Below are positions 6,278 to 58,077 of a stretch of 64,000 bases of DNA, in pieces. The stretch is taken from the NCBI RefSeq assembly GCF_000384115.1, contig NZ_KB913029.1:2328907-2392906 (forward strand), read 5' to 3'. A model generated the notes under the pieces. The model was not told the DNA's origin and made no database searches. It saw only the letters and a program-made list of their open reading frames with translations. Numbering within the stretch: position 1 is the stretch's first letter; every line of letters begins with the position of its first letter. The position numbers were made by a program, and so were the translations under genes. This stretch comes from Sporichthya polymorpha DSM 43042 (GTDB lineage: Bacteria > Actinomycetota > Actinomycetes > Sporichthyales > Sporichthyaceae).

Positions 6278-6339
6278 CCTGTCAAAAAAGGGTGTCACCC
6301 CTTACTGCGCAGTAAGGGGTGACACCCTTTTTTGACAGG
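6278..6339. repeat. palindromic repeat copy 1 (62 bp, perfect), bidirectional terminator-like
   Basis: A perfect 62-bp palindrome centred between 6308 and 6309 (core TTACTGCGCAGTAA), with A6 and T6 tracts flanking the GC-rich part of the stem, so it reads as an intrinsic terminator in both directions. It lies between convergent CocE-type hydrolase and meaB genes. The inner stem reads GGGTGTCACCCC here but GGGTGACACCCC in the three other copies, with pairing kept. Other copies are at 18872, 37222 and 49216. Confidence 0.95.
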
Positions 6340-18871: not shown

Positions 18872-18927
18872 GTCAAGAAAGGGTGACACCCCTTACTGCG
18901 CAGTAAGGGGTGTCACCCTTTCTTGAC
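18872..18927. repeat. palindromic repeat copy 2 (56 bp, perfect), bidirectional terminator-like
   Basis: A perfect 56-bp palindrome centred on TTACTGCGCAGTAA, between the convergent MFS and acyl-CoA ligase genes. The stem reads GGGTGACACCCC with A-rich and T-rich ends. Relative to copy 1 at 6278, one stem pair is exchanged (T-A for A-T), so pairing is preserved. Confidence 0.95.
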
Positions 18928-18948
18928 AAGGGGTGCGGGGCGGCGGCG

Positions 18949-30111: not shown

Positions 30112-30659
30112 GGGCGAACTGGGCCTTTGCCGCGCCGCGCGCCCGGACCGAGCGCGACGCGCTGCACCGGCACCTCGTTCACTTCGCCCGGGCGCGTGAG
30201 TGCGGTGGCCTGTTCGCGCACGCGGCGGCGCACGGGACTCCGATTGAGGGACCGTCAGGTCTGGCGGCGCAGGCCCCGCATTGGCTGTTTGCGTTCGACG
30301 CGGCGGGCATCGCGACGTTCCGAGCCTTGGCACTGGTCGCCGCGCGGCCGGGCGTTGCCGCGCGTGCGCGCGCCGACGACCCGTTCCTGCGCGCGGTCGT
30401 CGAGGACTCGATCCGGCTGTTCCCGACGACGCTCTCGATCCTTCGCGAGACCACCGAGCCGACCGCCTGGGCCGACCGTGCCCTCCCGGTCGGCACGCTC
30501 GTGGTGCTGCCGAGTTCCTACCTCCATCGCGGTCCGCACCGCCCCGACGCGCACGCGCTCAACCCCGACCAGTGGCTCGCGGGCGACCGACCCGCCGGGG
30601 TCGTGCCGTTCAGCGCCGGCCTCCGCCTCTCCTTGCGTCCGAAGAAGTGGCTGCGATAG
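30112..30659 (+). pseudogene. cytochrome P450 remnant
   Basis: About 173 codons of the middle and C-terminal part of a P450: WLFAFDAAGIATFRALALVA, then VEDSIRLFPTTLSILRETTE, where the ExxR helix reads DSIR, so the invariant Glu is lost, and SYLHRGPHRPDAHALNPDQW. The sequence ends at VVPFSAGLRL, just before the haem-binding Cys loop, and runs into the hairpin at 30631, whose translation (SLRPKKWLR) supplies the stop. The N-terminal half is missing too. The gene therefore lost both ends, and nothing functional is expected. Confidence 0.85.
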
Positions 30660-30682
30660 CGACCACTTCTTCGGACGCAAGG
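30631..30682. repeat. hairpin family copy A (20-bp perfect stem, 12-nt loop)
   Basis: The arm CCTTGCGTCCGAAGAAGTGG and its exact complement enclose the loop CTGCGATAGCGA. It begins at the truncation point of the P450 and ends 1 bp before the recQ stop codon on the other strand, so it could be recQ's terminator or the scar of the rearrangement. Copy B at 34696 has the same loop length and covarying arm bases. Confidence 0.9.
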
Positions 30683-34564: not shown

Positions 34565-34780
34565 ATGACTGCACAGATGTCGGAACCCGGCGTCGACCTC
34601 GGCGCCCTGGCGTCCGAGAAGGACCCGGTCGCGTTTCTGATCGGACAGCACATGATGATCCGCGACCTGTTCACCGAGGTGATAGGGCCCAGTTGCGTCC
34701 GACGATGTGGCTGCTATTGCGACCACATCGTCGGACGTCCGGGATCCTCTCGTGGGGTGAGGAAAGGCGGGCGCGGGTAG
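34565..34780 (+). pseudogene. hemerythrin-domain gene truncated after about 41 codons
   Basis: The first 41 residues (MTAQMSEPGVDLGALASEKD, then FLIGQHMMIRDLFTEVIG) are a normal HHE hemerythrin start, with the first metal His in QHMMIRDLF. Homology ends at about 34689, where the hairpin copy B begins; the remainder (SCVRRCGCYCDHIVGRPGSS) is translated hairpin and flanking DNA. The full domain needs about 130-180 residues, so the gene is dead. Its start is 11 bp after the ferritin-like gene, with a normal ribosome site. Confidence 0.85.
34696..34737. repeat. hairpin family copy B (15-bp stem, 12-nt loop)
   Basis: The arms CGTCCGACGATGTGG and complement flank the loop CTGCTATTGCGA. Compared with copy A (30631-30682) two arm bases differ, and both are compensated on the opposite arm. 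TTGCGTCC precedes in both. It starts at the hemerythrin truncation point. Confidence 0.9.
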
Positions 34781-37221: not shown

Positions 37222-37279
37222 TGTGACAAAAGGGTGACACCCCTTACTGCGCAGTAAGGGGTGTCACCCTTTCTTGACA
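37222..37279. repeat. palindromic repeat copy 3 (44-bp perfect core), bidirectional terminator-like
   Basis: Core palindrome 37229-37272 centred on TTACTGCGCAGTAA, with an imperfect left shoulder (GTGACAAAA against TCTTGACA). Lies between the convergent coiled-coil gene and the SpoIIE phosphatase gene. The left arm has drifted, unlike copies 1 and 2. Confidence 0.93.
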
Positions 37280-49215: not shown

Positions 49216-49273
49216 TGTCAAAAAAGGGTGACACCCCTTACTGCGCAGTAAGGGGTGTCACCCTTTTTTCACA
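49216..49273. repeat. palindromic repeat copy 4 (58 bp, one mismatch) with degenerate arm
   Basis: A 58-bp palindrome, one C-C mismatch (49219/49270), same TTACTGCGCAGTAA centre. Unlike the other copies it lies between two genes on the same strand. A further degenerate arm (AGGGGTGTCACCCCTT, 49287-49302) follows, ending 21 bp before the tilS start, so it could lower or attenuate tilS expression. Confidence 0.93.
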
Positions 49274-49323
49274 TCGCGCCGCACCGAGGGGTGTCACCCC
49301 TTGTTCAACGGGGGCGGGCTGAG

Positions 49324-50355
49324 GTGGGCCCCCACCCGGCGGTGGCGGAGATCCGACGGGCGGTCCGGACGGCGCTGACGGACCTCGAGCCCGGGGACCT
49401 CGTCCTCGTCGCGTGCAGCGGGGGGCCGGACTCGCTCGCGCTCGCGAAGGCGACCGCGTTCGAGGCCCCGCGCGCCGGGCTGCGGGCGGGGTTGATCACC
49501 GTCGACCACGGGCTGCAGCCCGGGTCGGCGGAGCGGGCGGCCGCGGTCGCCGCGACGGGACGCGAGTGGGGGTTCGACCCGGCCGAGGCGATCGCCGTCG
49601 ACGTCGGGACCGACGGCGGGCCCGAGGCCGCCGCCCGGACCGCCCGCTACGCCGCCCTCGACGCCGCGGCCGAGAAGCTCAACGCGGCGGCCGTCCTGCT
49701 CGCCCACACCCGGGACGAGCAGGCCGAGACGGTCCTGCTCGGTCTCGCCCGCGGGTCCGGGGCCCGCTCCCTCGCCGGCATGGCGCCCCGCTCGGGCCGC
49801 TACCGGCGTCCGCTCCTCGACGTCACCCGCGCCACCGTCGCCCTCGCCTGCCAGGCCGAGCACCTCCAGCCCTGGCACGACCCCCACAACGCCGACCCGG
49901 CCTACGCCCGGTCCCGGGTCCGCCACGAGGCCCTGCCCGCCCTCGAGGCCGCGCTCGGCCCCGGCATCGTCGACGCCCTCGCCCGGACCGCGGCCCTCCT
50001 CCGCGCCGACGCCGACGCCCTCGACGCCCTCGCCGCCGCCGTCTCGGTGGAGATGTCATCTCCACCGGATTCGGCCGTTTCCCTGGAGATGTCATCTCCA
50101 CCGGAACGGGGGCTCGACTGCGCGAAGCTCGCCGAGCAGCCGGCGGCGATCCGGACCCGGGTGCTGCGGAGCGCGGCGATCGGGGCGGGGTCGCCGGCGG
50201 GGGACCTGACGGCGGGGCACGTCGAGGCGCTGGACGCCCTGGTTCTCGCCTGGCGTGGACAGCGCTGGGTAGATCTGCCGGGAGCGGTCCGCGCGCTCCG
50301 GTCGTGTGGGACGCTCGTCTTTGTCGGCCCCCCGGAGGAGAGCAGCACCCCGTGA
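49324..50355 (+). CDS. tilS: tRNA(Ile)-lysidine synthetase
   Basis: Modifies C34 of the CAU-anticodon isoleucine tRNA to lysidine; essential in most bacteria. 343 aa, N-type ATP pyrophosphatase with the PP-loop SGGPDS at 32-37, [26 protein letters not shown] and the tRNA-binding [16 protein letters not shown] 49324 gives the family-typical [15 protein letters not shown] start. Odd: the linker before the C-terminal substrate domain contains two 12-residue repeats (239-262) encoded by a palindromic 36-bp duplication. The C-terminal domain is short, as in other actinobacteria. Confidence 0.94.
50038..50109 (+). repeat. 36-bp in-frame tandem repeat with palindromic core inside tilS
   Basis: Two 36-bp units (50038-50073, 50074-50109) encode [12 protein letters not shown] and [12 protein letters not shown]. 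Each contains the palindrome TGGAGATGTCATCTCCA (perfect 8-bp arms, one centre base); in unit 1 it extends to 21 bp. A local run of TCATCT is unlike the GC-rich codons around it. Confidence 0.92.
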
Positions 50356-50923: not shown

Positions 50924-50984
50924 CCACACCCCTTGATCGGCCGGCTCGCATCTCGGGGGGCCCGCGACAGGTATCGTCACAGTG

Positions 50985-53036
<2,052 letters not shown>

Positions 53037-53096
53037 CCCGCGCCCCCGGGCCACGGGCCCGGGCTGCCGGCCCCAGCCGCCGGGCTCAGCTGCACC

Positions 53097-53152
53097 GAGT
53101 GCGCAGTTGGGCCCCGGTGTGGGGCCTCGCACCGGTGCCGATCTGCGCACTC
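53097..53152. repeat. 53-bp-unit repeat family, copy 1 (inverted-pair form)
   Basis: GAGTGCGCAG (53097-53106) and CTGCGCACTC (53143-53152) pair, with GGGCCCCGG and CCGGTGC inside. The unit matches those at 54185-54272 and 57815-58077. It supplies the stop codon of the DUF559 gene. Confidence 0.8.
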
Positions 53153-54071
53153 AGCGCACGTGAGCGCCGCGCCGGCGGAGGAGGTCGAGGACGCGGGCGA
53201 TCTCGGCGAGCAGGCGTTCCGGATGCTGGTAGAGCAGCCAGGCGTTCACCTTGATGACGTACCAGCCGCGGCTCGCGTACTCGTTGTCACGGTTGATGTC
53301 CGACCCCCATTGCCGGGGCAGGTTCCGGTGGTGGGCGCCCTCGTACTCGAGGGCGAGGCCGACGCGGTAGCCCAGGTCGGGCTTCGCCCACTGGTGGCCG
53401 TCCTCGTCGTAGAGGGGCTCGTTGACGGTGTCCGGGACAAAGCCGTGCTCGACGACGAGGAGCCGCAGGTGGCTCTCGGGCGCCGAGTCGGCCTTGGGGT
53501 TGAGCAGGGGGAAGGCACGCCGGGCCGTGCGGATGCCCGGCCTCCCGGTGCCGGACTCCAGTGCCGTCACGAAGGACGGCCGCGCCGAGGGCACGCGCAG
53601 CAACGCGTCCCCGGCGGCGACGAGGTTGGGGAAGTCGAGATGCGCGGCGAGGTCGACGAACGTCCGGCCGGGCGAGGTCGTCCGCAGGCCGCCGTAGTCC
53701 CACACCTCGCCGACGTTCCGGACGCGGTGCGCGACGACGCCCTTGATCCGCGGCTCGACCGCCGCCACCACGCTCGCGTGCACCCGGGTGTCCGCAGCCA
53801 CCGGGGCGTCGAAGATCTTGGCTGCGGTGTGGTGGCTGAAGGCGGCGTCGTCCGGCAGTACGAGCCGCGCCGCCTCGCACCGCGCGCGGAGGTCCAGGCG
53901 CGCGTCGGCCGCGATCCGCACCCCCCGCGACACCGAACGGAATTGCTTGCCTTGCAGCTGACGCCGCGTCAGCCCCGCCGCCATCGCGTCCGAGTTCCGG
54001 AACGGGCGGGAATCGCTGAAGTCGGACGGCCCCGTGGAGCCGCGAGGTTCTCTGAAGTCGGAAGAAGTCAT
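53151..54071 (-). CDS. AbiEi-like antitoxin domain fused to DUF559 nuclease fold
   Basis: Product of 306 aa. A helix-rich N-terminal region is followed by AGLTRRQLQGKQFRSVSRGV (winged-helix AbiEi-type), a middle domain (KGVVAHRVRNVGEVWDYGGL), and a C-terminal PD-(D/E)xK-like DUF559 region with KPDLGYRVGLALEYEGAHHR and DNEYASRGWYVIKVNAWLLY. Such genes are scattered through actinobacterial chromosomes and are thought mobile; function unproven. ATG 54071 is the first good start; an upstream in-frame extension is possible. It sits between ftsH and folE and is flanked on both sides by the 53-bp-unit repeat family. Confidence 0.78.
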   Translation of the reverse strand: MTSSDFREPRGSTGPSDFSDSRPFRNSDAMAAGLTRRQLQGKQFRSVSRGVRIAADARLDLRARCEAARLVLPDDAAFSHHTAAKIFDAPVAADTRVHASVVAAVEPRIKGVVAHRVRNVGEVWDYGGLRTTSPGRTFVDLAAHLDFPNLVAAGDALLRVPSARPSFVTALESGTGRPGIRTARRAFPLLNPKADSAPESHLRLLVVEHGFVPDTVNEPLYDEDGHQWAKPDLGYRVGLALEYEGAHHRNLPRQWGSDINRDNEYASRGWYVIKVNAWLLYQHPERLLAEIARVLDLLRRRGAHVR

Positions 54072-54184
54072 GGCGCGGACTCTGCCTCCTCGCGGAGGCC
54101 GCCGATCCCGGGCTGTGGACAACTCCGTGTGTGTGCGTCCCTGTGCAAAACTCGCCCGAACGCGCTGGCCGGCCCAGGCGCTGA

Positions 54185-54272
54185 GGTGCTCTTCTGCGCA
54201 CCGGGCGCAGCTGGGCCCGGGGTTACGGCCGCGGACCGGTGCTGATCTGCGCACCGGGCGCAGCTGGGCCCC
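54185..54272. repeat. 53-bp-unit repeat family, copies 2-3 (direct)
   Basis: Two direct units 53 bp apart: identical 25-bp blocks at 54194-54218 and 54247-54271, each beginning CTGCGCACCGGGCGCAG and preceded by GGTGCT at equal distance. Lies 114-201 bp upstream of DUF559's start and 83 bp upstream of folE. The rest of the 283-base gap holds no gene. Confidence 0.82.
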
Positions 54273-54354
54273 GAGCGCGGGTCGACGCAGCCCCGGAAGA
54301 GGGTGCCGCGAGGGCCTCATCCCAGCGTCCCCGGGCAGTGCCTAGGCTGACGGG

Positions 54355-54978
54355 ATGGTCCAACCCACCTCCCTGCCTGAGGACAACGGGGGCGCGAGGC
54401 GTCCCTACGACGCGAAGCGGGCGGAGGATGCCGTCCGGGAACTGCTGATCGCGATCGGGGAGGACCCGGAGCGGGACGGGCTGCGGGACACGCCGGCCCG
54501 GGTGGCGCGGGCGTACGCGGAGATGTTCTCCGGGCTCTGGCAGCGGCCGGAGGACGTGCTGACCACGACCTTCGACCTCGGGCACGACGAGATGATCCTG
54601 GTCCGGGACATCGAGATGTACTCCTGCTGCGAGCACCACCTCGTGCCGTTCCACGGGCTCGCGCACATCGGGTACATCCCGGCCCCCGAAGGCCGGATCA
54701 CCGGGCTCTCCAAGCTGGCCCGCCTCGTCGACGTCTTCGCGAAGCGGCCCCAGGTCCAGGAGCGGCTCACCACCCAGGTCGCCGACTCCCTGATGCGGAT
54801 CCTCGAGCCGCGGGGCGCGATCGTGGTCATCGAGGCCGAGCACCTGTGCATGACGATGCGCGGGGTCCGCAAGCCGGGGTCGCGGACGATCACGTCCGCG
54901 GTCCGCGGGAGCCTGCTCAACGCCACCACGCGGGCCGAGGCGATGGCCCTGATCATGGAGTCCGGGCCCCGCCGGTGA
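54355..54978 (+). CDS. folE: GTP cyclohydrolase I
   Basis: First step of folate (and pterin) synthesis: GTP to dihydroneopterin triphosphate. 207 aa; zinc ligands in [13 protein letters not shown] (Cys, His, His) and a second Cys in [14 protein letters not shown]; conserved [23 protein letters not shown] 54355. First gene of folE-folP-ntf2-folB-folK-DUF3180, 5 bp before folP. Confidence 0.98.
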
Positions 54979-57818: not shown

Positions 57819-58077
57819 CGGGCGCCGGCCTGGTGGACGCCTGACCCTCGGGCCTACCTGCGCTGAGTGCGCAGATCGGCCCCGGTCGGTGCCCGGCGAC
57901 CCGTGCTCACCTCCACCGAGTGTGCAGATCGGCCCCGCAGGCCGGCCTCGCGGGGCTGACGGGCGCCGGCCGGGTGGACGCCTGACCCTGGGGCCTACCT
58001 GCGCTGAGTGCGCAGATCGGCCCCGGTTCGTGCCCGGCGACCCGTGCTCACCTCCACCGAGTGCGCAGATCGGCCCC
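57815..58077. repeat. 141-bp tandem duplication of two 53-bp units
   Basis: Two successive copies (start CTGACGGGCGCCGGCC at 57815 and 57956) about 95% identical, each with two GAGTGCGCAGATCGGCCCC modules 53 bp apart (57865, 57918, 58006, 58059). It fills most of the 386-base gap 57819-58204, which has no gene. Confidence 0.9.

Follow-up and report, generated by a model that had tools for sequence, protein, structure and literature searches.

The window analysed here is a 64-kb stretch of the source genome (G000), which is 5.5 Mb long in a single contig. Between ftsH and folE it carries a DUF559-type gene bordered on both sides by paired palindromic boxes, which we term family A. The window holds four such pairs, placed as follows:

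50982..53036, plus strand: ftsH, left neighbour of the DUF559-type gene
53082..53167: family A doublet 1, boxes centred at 53098 and 53151, where the 3' ends of ftsH and the DUF559-type gene face each other; it provides the stop codon of the latter
53151..54071, minus strand: DUF559-type gene, 306 aa, with an AbiEi-like N-terminal half and a Vsr/MTES_1575/DUF559-like nuclease C-terminal half
54186..54271: family A doublet 2, boxes centred at 54202 and 54255, upstream of both the DUF559-type gene and folE
54355..54978, plus strand: folE, right neighbour of the DUF559-type gene
57850..57935: family A doublet 3, boxes centred at 57866 and 57919
57991..58076: family A doublet 4, boxes centred at 58007 and 58060, duplicated in tandem from doublet 3; G002, a sister species, lacks this duplication

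A search of the window for the right half of the repeat, ACCGGTGCNGATCTGCGCAC, allowing up to three mismatches, gave 5 matches where shuffles predicted 0.09. A matrix for the 33-bp box found exactly 8 boxes in the window and 0 in the shuffled window. These numbers are far above shuffled expectation, and chance repeats were rejected as an explanation. Each family A unit is made of two 33-bp imperfect palindromic boxes with centres exactly 53 bp apart, separated by a variable 20-bp spacer; the 53-bp unit of the first-pass annotation is the period of this box pair. That annotation placed units at 53097-53152 and twice in 54185-54272, where they are indeed present, and its set of repeats was correct as far as it went, missing only the further pairs at 57866/57919 and 58007/58060. 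It had also claimed that the gene's stop codon is made from the repeat, and the TGA of this minus-strand gene (TCA at 53151-53153) does fall inside the second box of doublet 1.

The same arrangement was found throughout the genome. A 20-base half-site searched at up to three mismatches had 61 matches in G000, versus 3 for the reversed control, and family A was resolved into 27 pairs at 21 loci. All 27 pairs were spaced at exactly 53 bp, in a search that imposed no such spacing, as were all 10 pairs in the regions read of G002. The constancy of this distance across a variable spacer argues for selection on the distance, and so does the fact that only whole pairs spread. Predicted DNA hairpins were strong in most of the families folded, with z of about -5 to -12, and reached only -2 to -3.7 in family A. 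Covariation tests on families A and J found compensatory base changes no more often than in shuffles, so the folded hairpin is not supported as the selected form.

At up to two mismatches, half-sites numbered 45 in G000 and 15 in G002, and there were at most 3 in every other genome among the 60 searched. An exact half-site scan of genome contigs returned 5 single matches, all in unrelated organisms, and a plasmid search returned no match. Confirmed family A sites in G000 span 1.2–4.74 Mb, with none within ∼0.75 Mb of either contig end; GC skew was too weak to locate the origin. At one site (L085, G000:C1 about 2915810-2915850) a short tandem array of the unit GAGTGCGCA leads into the family A box. 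The first-pass annotation had bound these repeats to the neighbourhood of DUF559 genes, and had regarded copies scattered away from such genes as the observation that would count against it. For family A that scatter is what we found, since only two of the sites at the 21 loci have a DUF559-type neighbour, both of them beside the window gene. Family A was likewise rejected as a general DUF559 marker, because no other DUF559-type paralogue found adjoins a family A site.

In an alignment of 16 members of the protein family, residues E199, D232, G245 and R261 were invariant and E242 nearly so; the window protein carries E199, D232, R261 and E242. The AbiEi models of PADLOC matched all 16 aligned members, Pfam matches were to MTES_1575 (10 of 16), DUF559 (5 of 16), AbiEi_4 (4) and AbiEi_1 (4), and the solved endonuclease-like protein 3hrl was matched at an E value of 7e-8. 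Taken alone, the window protein fell under the Pfam cut-off (E 7.8e-4). An NCBIfam search led nowhere, and a single-sequence structure prediction of the window protein had a mean pLDDT of 40 and was discarded. Judged by sequence match and by catalytic-type residues (E, D and ExDG), these proteins qualify as putative members of the DUF559/MTES_1575 Vsr-like group; in the available text of PMC3710099, MTES_1575 is described as a Vsr-family nuclease domain.

The family is large. At least a dozen genes of AbiEi-like plus Vsr/DUF559-like type occur in G000, and a profile built from the 16 proteins had matches in 144 of 197 Actinomycetes genomes, in 67 of 77 genera. In G002 the orthologue of the window protein is without ∼32 residues of the nuclease half, including the invariant R261. 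The smaller number of half-sites in G002, a third of that in G000, alongside a damaged nuclease is compatible with a need for the nuclease, in what is a single comparison.

As the first-pass annotation had it, the order of ftsH and folE is otherwise conserved: ftsH lies within 1.5 kb upstream of folE in 18 of the 20 genomes searched, G000 included. The empty site that it proposed to seek in relatives exists in G003, where the two genes are ∼27 bp apart. Five genomes, G000 to G004, belong to the same taxonomic family. The G002 junction holds the same gene and the same flanking pairs as G000, the G001 junction three sugar-pathway-type genes and the G004 junction an acyltransferase-type gene, the last two without boxes. 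This junction (window 53037-54354; L127, L158, L159, L160) is a hotspot whose content differs by species.

Self-comparison of the flanks of other DUF559-type genes showed palindromes on both sides of nearly all of them, from a different family each time. The first-pass annotation had proposed to look for the flanks of the window gene at other DUF559 genes of this genome; these genes do not bear them, each bearing its own palindromes, but the wider picture of one palindrome family per nuclease gene supports the idea behind the proposal. In G000, 10 of the 12 tested paralogues were flanked on both sides (L035, L036, L037, L039, L040, L041, L043, L003, L004 and L202), and two, L038 and L042, had no flanking repeat even at E ≤ 1e-4. 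We named the families by gene: A for the window gene, B for L043, C for L041, D for L202, E for L036, F for L037, G for L039, H for L040, I for L003 and J for L004. The family B nuclease gene (L043, G000:C1 5499101-5500060) appears frame-disrupted in its N-terminal part; family B is among the more abundant families.

Matching left and right flanks (E ≤ 1e-5) were found at 25 of 28 usable DUF559-type loci in G000 to G004, versus 5 of 200 control genes, which were G000 genes of similar size (Fisher p ∼3e-25, with the loci partly orthologous). Left out of the 28 were L164, L170 and L175, for contig ends, wrong coordinates or a meaningless self-match. One of the five flanked controls was in fact a DUF559-type gene that had escaped recognition, and in at least two more the match came from long similar stretches (424 and 652 bp). 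Outside the host's taxonomic family, 15 of 22 usable best loci had matching flanks, leaving aside five with short flanks (L236, L241, L253, L255 and L262). Using automatic gene calls on 20 fetched stretches, 9 of 16 loci were flanked versus 3 of 187 neighbouring genes, a rate below 15 of 22 partly because automatic gene calls overrun the repeats. Recomputed together across Actinomycetes, leaving out seven short-flank loci and also L004, which had no protein match, 40 of 50 testable loci were flanked at E ≤ 1e-5 and 42 at E ≤ 1e-4; the orthologues of G000 and G002 are not independent, and therefore the effective sample is smaller. Eight of the 50 had no flanking repeat even at the looser threshold (L038, L042, L172, L238, L248, L250, L251 and L261).

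Similarity of the flanking repeats followed that of the proteins. Among all 861 pairs of 42 loci, flank repeats were similar (E ≤ 1e-4) in 10 of the 11 pairs whose proteins were at least 80% identical, in 5 of 12 at 60–80% and in 2 of 45 at 45–60%. Below 45% there were none among 793 pairs (0 of 183 at 35–45%, 0 of 610 lower). Repeat and protein diverge together, as recognition of the one by the other would predict, but joint inheritance of a gene with its flanks would give the same pattern.

Copies away from the family's own gene were found for nine of the ten G000 families. In 0.8 Mb of G000, sampled as 40 evenly spaced 20-kb stretches, there were 41 dispersed copies: 11 of family J, 10 of D, 7 of H, 5 of B, 2 each of C, E and F, 1 of G and 1 weak match to A, which the box matrix did not confirm. 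In this count L214 was treated as adjoining its gene. Intergenic positions accounted for 32 of the 41, in a sample that is 90% coding. The window itself contains the following copies of other families:

6280..6337: family D element, a near-perfect hairpin of ∼50 bp
18872..18928: family D element
30631..30682: family J element
34693..34738: family J element
37222..37279: family D element
49216..49307: family D element
50048..50100, plus strand: family B palindrome pair, in frame inside tilS (49342-50355)

The four family D hairpins of the window are near-identical and almost perfect, ∼50 bp long, with the core TTACTGCGCAGTAA.

Comparison of G000 with G002, a single species pair in which G002 still retains older copies, showed turnover of the palindromes; the nuclease genes stay put. 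Six of seven orthologous pairs of nuclease genes were syntenic on their flanks, and the seventh reaches a contig edge. The gene had been described as a cassette bounded by its own repeats. Half of that description stands, in that the repeats go with the gene, in G002 as well; the other half, a cassette or insertion sequence moving as a unit, was rejected given this synteny. By contrast, a pattern search of G002 was without 12 of the G000 family A loci. All 12 orthologous places were found, and none had a box; setting aside L181 and L186, which are near contig ends, all 10 informative G000-only sites are without boxes at the orthologous G002 place.

Of 14 D and J elements probed, 13 could be traced to an orthologous place in G002. 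All six family D elements were kept at the same places, and therefore some families look settled rather than mobile; the D elements probed elsewhere were better conserved between species than their own flanks. Of family J, three elements were kept in G002 and four were absent. One of the four (L224) was cleanly absent, and at the others something else stood in place of J: a B pair at L233, a sequence resembling G or H at L232 and an ordinary terminator-like hairpin at L216. The family B pair in tilS occurs in G000 only and adds 14 residues that are missing from the G002 protein; in this it is similar to in-frame palindromic elements known from Rickettsia. We saw no clean target-site duplication. 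In one case (L081/L190), a family A insert in G000 has the same ∼37-bp stretch to its left and to its right, where G002 carries a single copy of it; this may be a trace of how the element was inserted.

We consider it fairly probable that these are REPIN-like palindromes for which the part of a RAYT is taken, family by family, by a dedicated Vsr-like nuclease. Family A would be a population of miniature non-coding elements, each a pair of boxes at the fixed distance, on which the product of the gene between ftsH and folE would act in trans. The AbiEi-like N-terminal half of that protein, of winged-helix type, would bind the boxes, and the Vsr-like PD-(D/E)XK half would introduce a nick or a break in them or next to them. 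The repair machinery of the host, by end joining or recombination, would then copy or paste the element at new positions, for the most part immediately downstream of stop codons. At least nine further families in G000 (B to J) would be served likewise by their own paralogues. The nuclease gene, which stays in place, would be inherited vertically among copies of its own element, like a RAYT gene among REPINs. The box anatomy, the bordering of nuclease genes by their own families, the joint divergence of repeat and protein, the dispersal and the insertion differences between species are observed; the binding, cutting, copying and repair steps are inferred. Against such a scheme, a PD-(D/E)XK nuclease by itself has no joining chemistry.

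In the available text of PMC3116915, REPIN-RAYT systems comprise REP doublets and REP-associated tyrosine transposases. They share with the present families, on that account, palindromic doublets that are non-coding and extragenic and whose ends are better conserved than their spacer, tens of copies, turnover between species, a gene kept in place amid its own repeat family, and protein and repeat families that diverge together. Unlike in those systems, the repeat sequences are unrelated, ten or more families occur in one genome, and the enzyme, an AbiEi-like plus Vsr-like PD-(D/E)XK nuclease, belongs to a class with no relation to theirs. The search for a Y1/HUH transposase was negative: the Y1 profile (PF01797) had no match in the whole G000 genome, and the same profile matched in 5 of 14 control genomes. 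RAYT-driven REPINs were rejected because of this and because the flanked genes are of DUF559/MTES_1575 type. TIRtrons, as far as PMC3733652 is available, also have a gene within long inverted repeats that form moderately abundant families elsewhere in the genome, but their TIRYTs are HUH tyrosine transposases where we find a Vsr-like nuclease. The CGTC-tagged REPs of the same partial source are likewise palindromic repeats without a RAYT; they are described there as having no dedicated transposase, whereas here each family has a dedicated gene, of another class.

The nuclease half places our proteins in the same C-terminal superfamily as VsrA of Caulobacter, a DUF559 protein reported to trigger the SOS response in cells without a methyltransferase; unlike here, no flanking palindromes or repeat families are mentioned for VsrA in the portion of PMC12907096 available. 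The N-terminal region resembles the AbiEi antitoxins of AbiE type IV toxin-antitoxin systems (PMC3985639, in the part available), which form two-gene operons, unlike the single repeat-bounded gene with an added nuclease domain seen here. No AbiEii toxin gene follows the window gene: ftsH and folE adjoin it, with repeats directly on both sides. Nor is a CRISPR array suggested, the boxes occurring only as pairs, with a 20-bp spacer, at dispersed sites.

Alternatively, the host could maintain the palindromes as 3' elements that act as two-way transcription terminators or as hairpins at the 3' ends of mRNAs. Recombination or some unrelated agent would then spread them, and the DUF559-type genes would merely lie between them. 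The 32 intergenic copies of the 0.8-Mb sample were between convergent genes in 13 cases, tandem genes in 18 and divergent genes in only 1, where convergent and divergent regions supply 11% and 22% of the intergenic bases, and 9 of the 21 family A loci are likewise between convergent genes. The strong predicted hairpins of most families folded are also in keeping with it, as are the spots after stop codons that hold J in G000 and B or a terminator-like hairpin in G002. Yet it does not account for each nuclease gene being bordered left and right by a family of its own, for repeats agreeing only where proteins do, or for the copy in frame in tilS; matching flanks are also rare at control genes. 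We judge this explanation unlikely. Since copies favour 3' ends and one element can stand in for another at one spot, there is nevertheless room for a terminator role, as cause or consequence, within the nuclease-served scheme.

The palindromes might instead be cleavage sites of the nuclease, spread by gene conversion from existing copies, while the gene persists by a homing-like or addiction effect and not by serving them. Hints of such a system of homing or conflict come from a weak match to the structure of a mobile-intron protein (3r3p, E 0.22), from the one member in 16 that matches a PADLOC homing endonuclease model, and from the differing content of the ftsH-folE junction among relatives. 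Against this, the flanking repeats are whole palindromes and not the two halves of a single interrupted site; orthologous genes keep their position across species, and dispersed full elements without a gene are the common state. We consider homing quite unlikely.

The protein could also be an AbiEi-type repressor joined to a nuclease, with the palindromes as its operators and the dispersed copies as a regulon or as marks of self DNA. The AbiEi matches in all 16 aligned members agree with that, and the constant 53-bp spacing around a variable spacer would fit two proteins bound side by side, by a helical-turn argument. Against it, the copies avoid divergent promoter regions and favour 3' ends, they turn over as a set between sister species, and one lies inside tilS; we regard this reading as very unlikely. 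Least probable, and already disfavoured, is a coincidence in which DUF559-type accessory genes land in repeat-rich hotspots with no functional link to their matched flanks: different genes do occupy the ftsH-folE junction in different relatives, but flanked control genes are few (5 of 200 and 3 of 187) and repeat pairs with protein family by family over the 861 locus pairs.

Returning to palindromes served by dedicated nucleases, the presence in G000 of at least ten palindrome families, nearly all widely scattered and each flanking its own nuclease-like gene, suggests an unrecorded way of making and spreading bacterial palindromic repeats. In the open-licence PMC literature we found no publication that connects DUF559, Vsr-like or AbiEi genes to families of palindromic repeats, which is not proof of absence. 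This assignment would give a large and unexplained gene family a function open to testing, and would point to what probably lies behind the palindromic repeats scattered in genomes that have no RAYT transposase. If the nuclease is enough by itself to spread the palindromes, then REPIN-like elements evolved at least twice, around enzymes unrelated to each other, and the system is a new class. Through the pairing of repeats with proteins, nature also supplies a collection of nucleases with matching target sites for study.

More tentatively, it is quite possible, if not yet probable, that Actinomycetes hold a widespread and unrecognised class in which AbiEi-Vsr-like nucleases each make, spread and maintain their own palindromic miniature elements without a transposase, in up to a dozen pairs per genome, the elements alternating as 3' ends of host genes. 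Dispersal was also seen in a distant taxonomic family of Actinomycetes (f19), where one palindrome was followed by a 14-base half-element for which the reversed control gave 0. The half-element was not found in G109, whose best nuclease locus bears another palindrome. It occurred 105 times in G118, 88 in G127, 88 in G061, 26 in G043, 21 in G172 and 4 in G154. Among the pairs listed for G118, 37 of 40 are exactly 45 bp apart.
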